This document shows, piece after piece, positions 22,956 to 48,074 of a stretch of DNA of 64,000 bases. The translations under genes and the position numbers were made by a program. The stretch covers positions 62,001 through 126,000 of the forward strand of contig NZ_JAABNR010000005.1 of NCBI RefSeq assembly GCF_009925085.1. Reading direction: 5' to 3'. The DNA is from Stagnihabitans tardus (GTDB taxonomy: Bacteria; Pseudomonadota; Alphaproteobacteria; Rhodobacterales; Rhodobacteraceae). How positions within the stretch are numbered: the first letter of the stretch is position 1; each line of letters begins with the position of its first letter. Below the pieces are notes generated by a model, which worked only from the letters and a program-made list of their open reading frames with translations, was not told the origin of the DNA and did no database searches.

Positions 22956-22969
22956 TTGACATGGATCAA
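22956..22969. promoter_or_regulatory. FNR-like box, ccoN side
   Basis: TTGACATGGATCAA matches the FNR consensus with one change. It is exactly 32 bp from the uspA-side box. A class II promoter here would start near 23004, 72 bases before ccoN. Confidence 0.75.
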
Positions 22970-25622: not shown

Positions 25623-26561
25623 ATGGCCAAACCAATCAAGGAAGACCACAAGTCCGACAAGGTCGGCACGACGGGTCACGAATGGGACGGCATCCAGGAG
25701 CTGAACAATCCGCTGCCGCGCTGGTGGGTCTGGGTCTTTTACCTGACGATCATCTGGGGCGCGGCCTATACGGTCGCCTACCCGGCCTGGCCCCTGATCA
25801 CCGGGGCGACGCCGGGGGTTCTGGGCGCCTCGGTGCGGGCCGATGTCGCGGCCGAGATCCAGAGCTTTGACGACAAGAACGGTCCGATCAAGGCCAAGCT
25901 CGTGGCCGCCGACCTGACCGCGATCGAGGGCGACGAAGAGCTCAAGTCCTATGCCATGCAGGCCGGCAAATCGGTCTTCATGAACAACTGCGCCCAGTGC
26001 CACGGCTCGGGCGCGGCGGGTGTGGCGGGCAAGGGTTACCCGAACCTCCTCGACAACGACTGGCTCTTTGGCGGCGACATGACCGCGATCCACACGACCA
26101 TCACCCATGGCGTGCGCAACACGGTCGATCCCGATGCCCGCAACGTGGGTCTCGTGATGCCCGCCTGGTCTGACAAGGCCTCGGGTCCCCTGGCGGATGC
26201 GGCTTCGGCCAAGTTCACCGAGGAAGAGCTGGGCAGCGTCGTGCATTACGTGCTTAAGCTCTCGGGCCAGGAGGCGGATGCGGCCAAGGCCACGGCGGGG
26301 ACGCAGCTCTTTGCCGACAACTGCGCCGCCTGCCATGGCGAAGACGGCAAGGGCAACCGCGACATGGGCGCGCCCAACCTGACCGACGCCGTCTGGCTTT
26401 ACGGCGGCGACGAGGCGACGCTGACCGCCACGCTGACCCTTGGCCGCCAGGGCGTCATGCCCGCCTGGGGCTATGCCGGAGAGGGCGTGGCGCCGCGTCT
26501 GACCGAGGACCAGATCCGCTCGGTCGCCGTCTATGTCCATTCCTTGGGCGGCGGCGAGTAA
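25623..26561 (+). CDS. ccoP: cbb3 oxidase subunit III, diheme cytochrome c
   Basis: 312 residues: membrane anchor at about 34-57, then two cytochrome c domains with CAQCH (123-127) and CAACH (234-238). Axial Met candidates are VMPAW (about 179) and VMPAWGY near 290. It receives electrons from soluble cytochrome c. AAGGAGG precedes the start. Last gene of ccoNOQP, followed 20 bases later by a UUCG-loop terminator. Confidence 0.97.
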   Translation: MAKPIKEDHKSDKVGTTGHEWDGIQELNNPLPRWWVWVFYLTIIWGAAYTVAYPAWPLITGATPGVLGASVRADVAAEIQSFDDKNGPIKAKLVAADLTAIEGDEELKSYAMQAGKSVFMNNCAQCHGSGAAGVAGKGYPNLLDNDWLFGGDMTAIHTTITHGVRNTVDPDARNVGLVMPAWSDKASGPLADAASAKFTEEELGSVVHYVLKLSGQEADAAKATAGTQLFADNCAACHGEDGKGNRDMGAPNLTDAVWLYGGDEATLTATLTLGRQGVMPAWGYAGEGVAPRLTEDQIRSVAVYVHSLGGGE

Positions 26562-26581
26562 ATCAGCCGGTATCGGCGGGG

Positions 26582-26603
26582 AAGGGGGCCTTCGGGCCCC
26601 CTT
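26582..26603 (+). terminator. Terminator of ccoNOQP with UUCG tetraloop
   Basis: AAGGGGGCC, loop TTCG, GGCCCCCTT and then TTCC form a perfect 9-bp stem capped by the very stable UUCG loop, 20 bases after the ccoP stop. It should separate ccoNOQP from the following sequence. Confidence 0.92.
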
Positions 26604-26635
26604 TTCCTTTGGCGCTTCCCCGGGCGCTTGCGGGC

Positions 26636-26649
26636 TTGACCTGAATCAA
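26636..26649. promoter_or_regulatory. FNR-like box 1 between ccoP and ccoG
   Basis: TTGACCTGAATCAA, one change from TTGAT-N4-ATCAA, 33 bases after the ccoP terminator. Tandem with the next box (33 bp apart). Confidence 0.7.
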
Positions 26650-26668
26650 ATGCGGAAAAATGCGCCAC

Positions 26669-26682
26669 TTGATGCAGGTCAA
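26669..26682. promoter_or_regulatory. FNR-like box 2 between ccoP and ccoG
   Basis: TTGATGCAGGTCAA, one change from consensus. If used as a class II site it would start transcription near 26717, about 245 bases before ccoG and just at the beginning of a run of hairpins. Confidence 0.7.
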
Positions 26683-26699
26683 GGAAAAGCCCTGACGAA

Positions 26700-26865
26700 T
26701 CGGCGAATGTGTCTTTGCCGGGGAGCTTCCGGCGGGCACCGATCCCCTCCTGTTCGCGCGGTTCCTGGGGGATCGGTGCCGTCTTTCCCCTCCCTGCCCG
26801 GGACACCCGGCAAACTCTTTACCACTCCCCTCATCAAGCGGTCCCTCGGGGCCGCTTGATCAATT
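26700..26865 (+). ncRNA. Candidate FNR-controlled structured small RNA
   Basis: This 401-base gap between ccoP and ccoG (26562-26963) has no convincing coding frame. After the ccoP terminator and two FNR-like boxes come three hairpins: 26717-26733 (GCCGG/CCGGC with a GGAGCTT loop), 26735-26780 (perfect 13-bp stem GGCACCGATCCCC around a 20-base loop) and 26833-26860 (ATCAAGCGG with CCGCTTGAT, plus wobble). A separate FNR-like box then serves ccoG. The layout suggests an independent oxygen-regulated RNA; a long ccoG leader is the alternative. No clear T-run follows the last hairpin, which weakens the case. Confidence 0.35.
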
Positions 26866-26897
26866 CTGGCCCTTGGGTTTGCCGAAAGCGCGGGGGC

Positions 26898-26911
26898 TTG
26901 ACCTAGGTCAA
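26898..26911. promoter_or_regulatory. FNR-like box of ccoG
   Basis: TTGACCTAGGTCAA is a perfect palindrome, part of CTTGACCTAGGTCAAG, 52 bases before the ccoG start. A class II start would fall near 26946. Confidence 0.75.
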
Positions 26912-26963
26912 GGCCGCCCCCCTCGCCGCAGTGCAGAAGATCAAGGCGAACAGGATGGGTCAC

Positions 26964-28409
26964 ATGCAAGAATCCGAATCTCCCAAGCTTTATGCCGCCC
27001 GCGAACCGATCTTCCCCCGCCGCGTGAAGGGCACCTTCCGGACGCTGAAATGGTGGCTCCTGGCCGTCATGCTGGGCATCTATTACCTGACGCCCTGGAT
27101 CCGCTGGGACCGGGGCCCCGCGATGCCCGACCAGGCGGTGCTTCTGGACCTCGCCAACCGCCGCTTCTTTTTCTTCATGATCGAGATCTGGCCGCACGAG
27201 TTCTATTTCGTCGCGGGCCTCTTGATCATGGCGGGGCTGGGGCTCTTCCTCTTTACCTCGGCGGCAGGCCGGGTCTGGTGCGGCTATGCCTGCCCGCAGA
27301 CCGTCTGGACAGACCTTTACATCCTGGTCGAGCGCTGGGTCGAGGGCGACCGCAACGCCCGCATCCGCCTGCACCGCCAGAAATGGGACCTGGAGAAGAC
27401 CTGGAAGCGCCTGTTGAAGTGGACGATCTGGCTGGCCATCGGCCTCGCCACCGGTGGCGCCTGGGTCTTTTACTTCACCGATGCGCCGACGCTTCTGGGT
27501 CAGCTTCTGACCTTTACCGCCCATCCGGTCGCCTATGGCACCATGGCGGTCCTGACCTTCACCACCTTCTTCTTCGGCGGCTTTGCCCGCGAGCAGGTCT
27601 GTATCTACGGCTGCCCCTGGCCACGCATCCAGGCCGCGATGATGGACGAGGAAACCATCACCATCGGCTACCGCTCCTGGCGCGGAGAGCCGCGTGGCAA
27701 GCAGACCGTGGCGGGCAATGGCGATTGCATCGACTGCATGGCCTGCGTGAACGTCTGCCCCATGGGCATCGACATCCGCAACGGCCAGCAGCTGGCCTGC
27801 ATCACCTGCGGCCTGTGCATCGACGCCTGCGACAGCATGATGGACAAGATCGGCAAGCCGCGCGGCCTCATCGGCTACCTGGCGCTCACCGATGAACCCC
27901 TGGAACGCCAGGGCCTGAAGGACAAACCGATCTGGAAGCACATCCTGCGGCCCCGGACCATCGTTTACACGGTGCTTTGGGCGGGCATCGGGATTGCCCT
28001 GGTCGCGGCGCTCTTCCTGCGCGCCAACCTCGATGTCTCGGTCAGCCCGGTGCGCAACCCGATGTTCGTGACCCTGTCGGATGGCTCGATCCGCAACACC
28101 TATGACCTGCGGCTGCGCAACAAGCATGGCGAAGACCGCTGGTTCACCTTCACGGCCTTTGCCCCGGCCGATGTGACCCTGACGCTGGAGGGCACGGAAG
28201 AATTCCGCGTCCTGGTCAAGGCGAATGAGACCAAGGAGCAGCGGCTTTACATCACGGCCAAGGCGGATACCGTGGCAGCCAAGACCGACAACCTGCCGGT
28301 GCGGCTCTGGATCACCGATGCCGAGGGGCCGAGCCTGCCACCTGTGACGGATATTCCCAAGGCCGAACGCGTCTACAAGGACACGGTCTTCCACGGAAAG
28401 GTTGAATGA
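26964..28409 (+). CDS. ccoG: Cytochrome oxidase assembly iron-sulfur protein CcoG (RdxB/FixG)
   Basis: 481 residues. About five membrane segments, FeS ligands in WCGYACPQTVW and CIYGCPWPR, then a 2x[4Fe-4S] ferredoxin domain with CIDCMACVNVCPMG and CITCGLCIDACD, and a C-terminal Ig-like periplasmic domain. CcoG is reported to act as a cupric reductase feeding copper into cbb3. AGGA at 26952-26955 favours the ATG at 26964 (MQESES) over 26955. First gene of ccoGHIS. Confidence 0.95.
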   Translation: MQESESPKLYAAREPIFPRRVKGTFRTLKWWLLAVMLGIYYLTPWIRWDRGPAMPDQAVLLDLANRRFFFFMIEIWPHEFYFVAGLLIMAGLGLFLFTSAAGRVWCGYACPQTVWTDLYILVERWVEGDRNARIRLHRQKWDLEKTWKRLLKWTIWLAIGLATGGAWVFYFTDAPTLLGQLLTFTAHPVAYGTMAVLTFTTFFFGGFAREQVCIYGCPWPRIQAAMMDEETITIGYRSWRGEPRGKQTVAGNGDCIDCMACVNVCPMGIDIRNGQQLACITCGLCIDACDSMMDKIGKPRGLIGYLALTDEPLERQGLKDKPIWKHILRPRTIVYTVLWAGIGIALVAALFLRANLDVSVSPVRNPMFVTLSDGSIRNTYDLRLRNKHGEDRWFTFTAFAPADVTLTLEGTEEFRVLVKANETKEQRLYITAKADTVAAKTDNLPVRLWITDAEGPSLPPVTDIPKAERVYKDTVFHGKVE

Positions 28410-47667: not shown

Positions 47668-47681
47668 TTGACCTGGATCAA
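47668..47681. promoter_or_regulatory. FNR-like box upstream of the AhpD-like gene
   Basis: TTGACCTGGATCAA, one change from consensus, 48 bases before the ATG; a class II start would be near 47716. The same box type as in the cco region. Confidence 0.65.
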
Positions 47682-47729
47682 GGCCGCCCGCGCCAAGTTC
47701 GCGCAAGAAGGCGGCAAAAGGAGACTGGC

Positions 47730-48074
47730 ATGACTTACAAGACCGACACCGCCGAGCTGCGCAGCGAACTGCGCGCGCTTCACAAGCTGAACCCTGAAAC
47801 CGCCAAGGGTTTCAACGCCTTGTCCATGGGCGCCATGACTGACGGCCCGCTGGACAAGAAGACCCGCGAATTCGTGGCCCTTGCCATCGCGGTCACCCAG
47901 CGCTGCCAGCCCTGCATCAACCTTCATGTCGAGGCCCTGATGAAGGTCGGCTCCACGCGGGAAGAAATGGGCTCTGTCCTGGCCATGTGCGTCCAGATGG
48001 GGGGAGGGCCCGCGCTCATGTATGCCGCCCATGCGCTGGGCGTTTGGGACGAATACGCGGCGCCTGCCGAATAG
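47730..48074 (+). CDS. AhpD-like carboxymuconolactone decarboxylase family protein
   Basis: 114-residue all-helical protein with CQPC (59-62) and His66 in RCQPCINLH, the redox motif of AhpD-type peroxidase partners. A length near 115 and the LDKKTREFVALAIAV segment are typical of the family. AAAGGAGA sets the ATG at 47730. The FNR-like box suggests induction at low oxygen. Physiological substrate unknown. Confidence 0.88.
   Translation: MTYKTDTAELRSELRALHKLNPETAKGFNALSMGAMTDGPLDKKTREFVALAIAVTQRCQPCINLHVEALMKVGSTREEMGSVLAMCVQMGGGPALMYAAHALGVWDEYAAPAE

Follow-up and report, generated by a model that had tools for sequence, protein, structure and literature searches.

What does the DNA between ccoP, the last gene of the ccoNOQP operon for the low-oxygen respiratory cbb3 oxidase, and ccoG encode in Stagnihabitans tardus, a member of the Rhodobacteraceae with Rhodobacter sp. 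KR11 and, equally, an uncultured Pseudorhodobacter as its nearest named relatives here (CcoG identity 88–89%)? In the stretch of contig NZ_JAABNR010000005.1 analyzed here, 64,000 nucleotides (nt) long and referred to as the window, the interval is bounded by ccoP (25623..26561, + strand; Pfam FixP_N and Cytochrome_CBB3) and ccoG (26955..28409, + strand, starting at 26955 or 26964; Pfam Fer4_18 and FixG_C), both seen as open reading frames. A first-pass annotation had placed in it a separate FNR-controlled small RNA behind a terminator of ccoNOQP. Comparison of the locus across the family supports the view that the interval is probably the gene for an FNR-activated small RNA of ~75–80 nt, which in relatives would be the 3′ end of ccoNOQP and would act in trans by loop pairing. 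At low oxygen, FNR would bind a box centered 41.5 base pairs (bp) before the RNA start and turn on the RNA along with ccoNOQP and ccoG. Where a relative lacks a terminator between ccoP and the hairpin described below, the RNA would be the 3′ end of the FNR-driven ccoNOQP transcript, released through termination or processing. The loop would then pair in trans with mRNAs, most likely at ribosome-binding sites.

The conserved hairpin and its strand

The core of the interval is a conserved hairpin of 13–14 bp (26735..26780, + strand), capped by a nearly invariant 17-nt loop, here CCTGTTCGCGCGGTTCC (26749..26765, + strand), the genus form of the family loop. Of 147 relatives searched at the DNA level, 28 gave matches; beyond the three closest, most of these matches consisted of this hairpin alone, almost always at the ccoP–ccoG junction. 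A covariance model built from 51 aligned sequences has one clear match in the source genome (E 1.2e-12, the next best being E 0.065). It matches 193 of 394 family genomes, which were drawn from 393 genera, and none of the 285 genomes outside the family in a set of 289 from the class; that set also held four family genomes, two of which matched and two did not. The motif accompanies the oxidase: when the listings were compared by hand, ccoP was present in 355 of the 394 family genomes and the motif in 192 of those 355, while the motif without ccoP was found in 1 of 39 (G344, a genome 73% complete in which ccoG adjoins the motif). From among the matches listed for the 193 positive genomes, 159 loci entered the hairpin finder. 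L027 had no hairpin, and L156, L222, and L243 failed the loop-and-stem rule, yet were matched by the model; all four were dropped, and the remaining 155 loci reduced to the 144 unique loci counted below. The hairpin very probably is the published HRC-8-4 motif, because place, order, and architecture agree. According to passages of Brewer et al. 2021 (PMC8632094), that motif lies between ccoNOQP and ccoGHIS in Rhodobacterales, often with hvrB next, and a riboswitch or HvrB binding was proposed for it.

The stem covaries. Two-sided changes were found in 11 of 13 stem pairs in the 51-row alignment and in 12 of 13 in an alignment of 109 rows, seven of which are weak or opposite-strand matches; slid controls gave far lower values. 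Among the 102 strong rows, 77 G·U pairs stand against 15 A·C pairs, an excess that identifies the cco strand as the one transcribed as RNA and argues against a DNA cruciform. Folding of the + strand from 26700 to 26900 gave a z of -4.9 with 0 of 200 shuffles equally stable, compared with -3.0 and 1 of 200 for the - strand; the predicted RNA alone (26717-26795) gave -2.7. The loop, 5′-CCUGUUCGCGCGUUUCC-3′ as RNA, has the exact family form CCTGTTCGCGCGTTTCC in 97 of the 144 loci and the source genus form in 13, the genus differing by one U to G change, so that a leader following this change would carry AGGAACCGCG in place of AGGAAACGCG.

The first-pass annotation had suggested a covariance search and had held that stems lacking conservation in relatives would speak against an RNA. 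The stem proved conserved as well as covarying, and the search succeeded through the model of the hairpin itself; Rfam returned no match at or above the gathering threshold in the window. An Rfam identity was rejected also on a permissive scan of 26560-26960, in which the best of six subthreshold matches, MH_s15, scored 18.4 bits against a threshold of 123. The annotation's further statement that the interval holds no coding frame is a fair one, in that conservation there is of the RNA-stem type, despite mechanically called open reading frames of 65, 91, and 108 residues and the end of a 625-residue antisense frame that cross it.

Two locus anatomies and the FNR box

The 144 loci, with ccoP upstream in 134 and ccoG downstream in 126, fall into two anatomies. 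In 86 the hairpin lies no more than 137 nt from the ccoP stop codon; in the other 58, ccoP is at least 178 nt away (48 loci) or was not found in the fetched stretch (10 loci). The 140-nt cut between them was chosen after the data had been seen and sits in an empty gap of 137–178 nt. A perfect FNR-like box (TTGAYNNNNRTCAA), sought in the 300 nt 5′ of the loop, was absent from all 86 loci directly behind ccoP but present in 57 of the other 58, the exception, L149, carrying a box with one mismatch. In shuffled upstream stretches, a given 300 nt held a perfect box at a frequency of ~0.0005. The first count was 0 of 85 and 57 of 59, before L238 was reassigned because it holds three tandem hairpin copies, the first ~62 nt after ccoP. 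In Paracoccus sp. SMMA_5_TC the match starts 59 nt after ccoP and is followed by an FNR box and then ccoG. Paracoccus pantotrophus DSM 11072 (L418) also has, as we read the match, its hairpin close to ccoP, and Rhodobacter sp. KR11 (L030) represents the other anatomy, with a box pair of its own.

The association holds on phylogenies, both of which used the locus assignment before L238 was moved. On a ccoP tree of 129 loci the anatomy changes 25 times, at least 11 of them on well-supported branches, and the box tracks the anatomy in 10 of 11 independent pairs (p 0.002); a ccoG tree with 113 loci gives 7 of 8 (p 0.016). In each tree the remaining pair shows no difference. The tail of the first hairpin after ccoP also separates the groups (p 5e-18), being T-poor in loci directly behind ccoP (mean 0.95 T of 8; 84 of 85 loci) and T-rich in distant ones (mean 3.94 T of 8; 49 loci). 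The two hairpins abut in the former group, so the T-poor tail there mainly means that no terminator stands between them.

By comparison across loci, then, proximity to ccoP and possession of an FNR box are alternatives, which implies that the RNA comes from an FNR promoter of its own in some loci and from the 3′ end of ccoNOQP in others, a pattern more in keeping with an FNR-dependent small RNA than with a leader riboswitch. The RNA gene has very likely been kept under FNR control, and the RNA seems to remain under FNR whichever promoter serves. The covariation, the strand asymmetry, and the split of the box (57 of 58 versus 0 of 86) thus agree with the annotated small RNA. Its separateness is borne out in the own-promoter loci; in over half of the loci the RNA would instead be the 3′ end of the ccoNOQP transcript. 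Such a locus offers a natural experiment on the interconversion of 3′-end RNAs and independent small RNA genes.

Several loci depart from these anatomies in detail. The three copies of L238 (G257:C42) are ~91 nt apart, with identical loops and stems that are different yet paired. Luteovulum azotoformans and Cereibacter changlensis (L101 and L109) have a diverged hairpin directly behind ccoP with an altered loop. L149 and L174 carry hairpin copies off the usual junction, each with an upstream FNR-like box (in L174, 203 nt away); by reading of the sequence, their neighbors are a cation transporter and a metal P-type ATPase, respectively.

Alignment of the 57 RNA promoters on their boxes revealed A at position 24 after the box (84%), T at 28 (61%), and A at 35 (56%). 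Position 35 lies 41.5 bp from the box center, which is the class II FNR distance; in the window this position is a G. The promoter signals of the 57 loci are mostly at class II spacing, and FNR activation is predicted. A YAnnnT test for the -10 element succeeded in 25 of the 57 (shuffled mean 10). The FNR promoters of ccoG (123 loci) share the A at 24 (90%) and at 35 (50%), with A rather than T nearby. Transferred to the window, these positions place the activator site at box 2 (26669..26682, + strand, a perfect match), the -10 element GAATGT at 26705..26710 (+ strand), and the start at 26717. The predicted RNA, 26717..26795 (+ strand), would thus measure ~75–80 nt rather than the 150–170 nt first proposed, its start inferred from the promoter alignment and its uncertain 3′ end from the hairpin. 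In L116, L127, L136, L137, L154, and L178 the spacing between box and hairpin is long, and the predicted RNA has an extra 5′ part holding a GGGGCCCTCCCCC-type run, which could expose a CCUCCC anti-Shine-Dalgarno motif.

Candidate targets and competing explanations

The RNA is likely to act in trans, and its loop is the presumptive pairing region. Searches with the complement of the whole loop gave no indication of targets. In the source genome, allowing three mismatches or fewer, 15 sites were found, the locus itself included, whereas the reversed control gave 42, and none of the 14 other sites lies at the start of its longest covering open reading frame, so a whole-loop target was rejected there. 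Across 101 genomes (hand tally), ~100 matches in the family, ~37 of which are the hairpin itself, compare with 41 controls, and 29 matches in other families with 15 controls, so that there is no family-specific excess.

The 3′ half of the loop gave more. The sequence AGGAAACGCG followed within 12 bases by ATG occurs at 96 sites in 28 RNA-positive genomes and at 38 in 23 RNA-negative ones, or 3.4 versus 1.7 per genome (p 0.0024, with two self matches removed and kinship uncorrected), the RNA-positive label coming from strict filters that may miss some genomes. A permuted control gave 88 and 70 (p 1.0). The split by RNA presence had been seen before a control was chosen, and the permuted control was fixed before its own count was seen. 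The corresponding odds ratio is 2.0 (p 0.005), and the paired difference has a p of 0.05, or 0.08 in near-complete genomes. The sequence CGCGAACAGG next to ATG was discarded as an uninformative target test, because CTG TTC GCG can be read as codons for Leu-Phe-Ala, which makes the reversed control unfair. For the tally of genes we fetched all sites with a gap of 5 or less (69 in RNA-positive and 22 in RNA-negative genomes) and nine larger-gap sites, all of these nine in RNA-positive genomes. Among the genes behind the fetched sites, lon and petB (cytochrome b of the bc1 complex) were each met in four genomes, every one RNA-positive, and a fumarylacetoacetase gene in two. Shared ancestry of the leaders could explain the recurrence of petB and lon.

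The 5′ half of the loop has a 10-nt complement, GCGAACAGGA, at the predicted 5′ end of the ccoG mRNA (26946..26955, + strand), a candidate pairing site. A GCGAAYAG-type complement was counted at the point where ccoG mRNA is predicted to begin in 18 of 123 loci (mean of 0.12 in shuffled sequence), 13 of them of the source genus; among named loci, 11 of the 37 that have the hairpin carry it, as do 2 of the 38 lacking a recognized one. Since 13 of the 18 loci represent one genus, ccoG was rejected as a general target, and it may at best be a lineage-specific one. As weak, exploratory leads, we put forward the Shine-Dalgarno regions of petB and of lon, along with the ccoG mRNA 5′ end. They permit a tentative, indeed doubtful, picture in which at least 11 switches between the 3′-end and own-promoter forms have kept the loop, its 3′ half (CGCGUUUCCU) would cover a few Shine-Dalgarno sites including those of petB and lon, and its 5′ half would cover the ccoG mRNA 5′ end in the source genus. 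If true, a low-oxygen RNA would tune the bc1-to-cbb3 respiratory branch and oxidase assembly.

Other findings weigh against an FNR-activated, trans-acting RNA. About half of the family genomes have no motif match, though strict filters may miss some. The YAnnnT pattern occurs in 10 of the 123 ccoG promoters against a shuffled mean of 23. The T-run after hairpin 26735-26780 is weak in the window, where the scan listed no terminator, and no conserved full complement of the loop was found, the target leads being modest. Leaders of hvrB show no excess of complementarity, the longest loop complement averaging 5.4 against 5.0 in shuffled sequence (42 loci).

Base-pairing seeds are usually less conserved than the loop of this RNA. 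Together with the failure to find a strong conserved mRNA target, this fits an alternative in which the loop binds a protein or another structured RNA, as a sponge or scaffold, and does not pair with mRNA. We regard that explanation as unlikely, for RNA-positive genomes hold about double the number of start-codon-adjacent complements of the 3′ loop half found in RNA-negative ones, whereas the permuted control is flat.

Improbable, too, is a terminator-embedded riboswitch or a protein-controlled attenuator acting on whichever of ccoG or hvrB comes next. The passages of PMC8632094 that treat HRC-8-4 speculate along these lines, and the idea finds some support in the terminator-like stem with its conserved tip and in the LysR-type gene that is next on the same strand in many loci (44 rows downstream in a 52-locus open reading frame cluster, Pfam on the L017 member); same-strand hvrB loci are compatible with it. 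A cis-acting leader, however, shares one transcript and strand with a regulated gene downstream, and the present element does not conform to this: the next gene varies, being ccoG within 550 nt in 77 of 144 loci, and is a convergent DUF2270 gene in L113, L164, and L193 (Pfam on L113), and in 123 of 126 loci a perfect FNR box belonging to ccoG itself separates the hairpin from the ccoG start. The element, moreover, lies directly behind ccoP in 86 of 144.

That the hairpin is a mere transcription terminator or 3′-end stabilizer of ccoNOQP with no regulatory role is likewise improbable, for although it stands behind the operon in those 86 loci with a moderate share of T after it (mean 3.5 T of 8; 3.5–3.7 over our counts), termination needs no nearly fixed 17-nt loop, and the remaining 58 loci have a separate terminator-like hairpin for the operon (T-rich tail in 49) and, in 57 of them, an FNR box belonging to the element, even where the element lies more than 1 kb from the operon hairpin.

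Other features of the locus and comparison with known systems

The three FNR-like boxes annotated at 26636, 26669, and 26898 are exact, perfect matches, the first two 33 bp apart. Box 1 (26636..26649, + strand), the upstream member of the pair, is found also in the closest relatives L002 and L003, and the 33-bp spacing is preserved in the two nearest relatives of the source genome; the third box (26898..26911, + strand) is that of ccoG. They belong to five perfect boxes in the window. Another, at 22956-22969, precedes ccoN, and the ccoN leader behind it contains no loop complement of 9 nt or more. The fifth, at 47668-47681, lies 47 nt 5′ of the ATG of a 115-codon frame (47729-48074) that we read from its sequence as a carboxymuconolactone decarboxylase/AhpD-like protein. 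The source genome encodes an FnrL-like protein with Crp-family domains and the cysteine run CGDCQIRHRAVC.

The UUCG-loop terminator described after ccoP exists as a terminator-like hairpin that would close ccoNOQP in the source genome (26578..26607, + strand), with a perfect 13-bp stem and a TTCG loop; its T-run is short, and a strict scan of 26540-26980 called no terminator. As for the hairpins annotated between the boxes, those at 26735-26780 and 26833-26860 are present, the second outside the conserved element. Across the family, as judged by sequence comparison, the first is the only conserved hairpin of the interval. Hairpin 26833-26860 (ATCAAGCGG...CCGCTTGAT) occurs in the window and its two closest relatives only, has no T-run after it, and is surrounded, by eye, by an 8-base inverted pair, CGGCAAAC/GTTTGCCG.

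Among known RNAs, PcrZ of Rhodobacter sphaeroides, encoded at another locus, is a functional parallel only. It resembles the RNA predicted here, by description, in being a low-oxygen, FnrL-dependent small RNA and in belonging to the same order (passages of PMC8139620 and PMC4263372), and differs in its direct control by PrrA, with FnrL possibly acting indirectly (PMC8139620). The FnrL-bound small RNAs RSs0019 and RSs2461 of R. sphaeroides are named in PMC4263372, none being placed at this locus in the passages concerned. Enterobacterial FnrS, likened here by its description in passages of PMC8139620, is an independent, FNR-activated small RNA made without oxygen, but more than 30 repressed mRNAs are reported for it. 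NarS, also enterobacterial and likewise compared by description, is a small RNA linked to FNR and derived from the 3′ end of narK, a respiratory transcript; it belongs to another gene and another phylum class, and the passages of PMC8139620 describe no alternation with a promoter of its own. In two small-RNA surveys within the family (PMC5107571, PMC4809877) the locus terms searched for gave no hit in the main text, and the literature searched gave no other account of this RNA beyond PMC8632094.

The closest comparison is thus with HRC-8-4 itself, as set out in passages of PMC8632094. The likeness covers the location, mainly between ccoNOQP and ccoGHIS (here ccoP upstream in 134 and ccoG downstream in 126 of 144 loci). 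It extends to the restriction to Rhodobacterales (here 193 of 394 family genomes and 0 of 285 outside the family) and to the strong stem, conserved tip, and U-run, the last only moderate here. The difference lies in the reading, a riboswitch or HvrB-binding element in the published account, whose main text does not contain the term FNR, versus a putative FNR-linked small RNA here. What is new relative to the published motif is the split between loci with and without an FNR promoter, the evidence for the strand, and the interpretation as a small RNA, and with these an untested riboswitch candidate becomes a testable, oxygen-responsive small RNA common to much of the Rhodobacteraceae.
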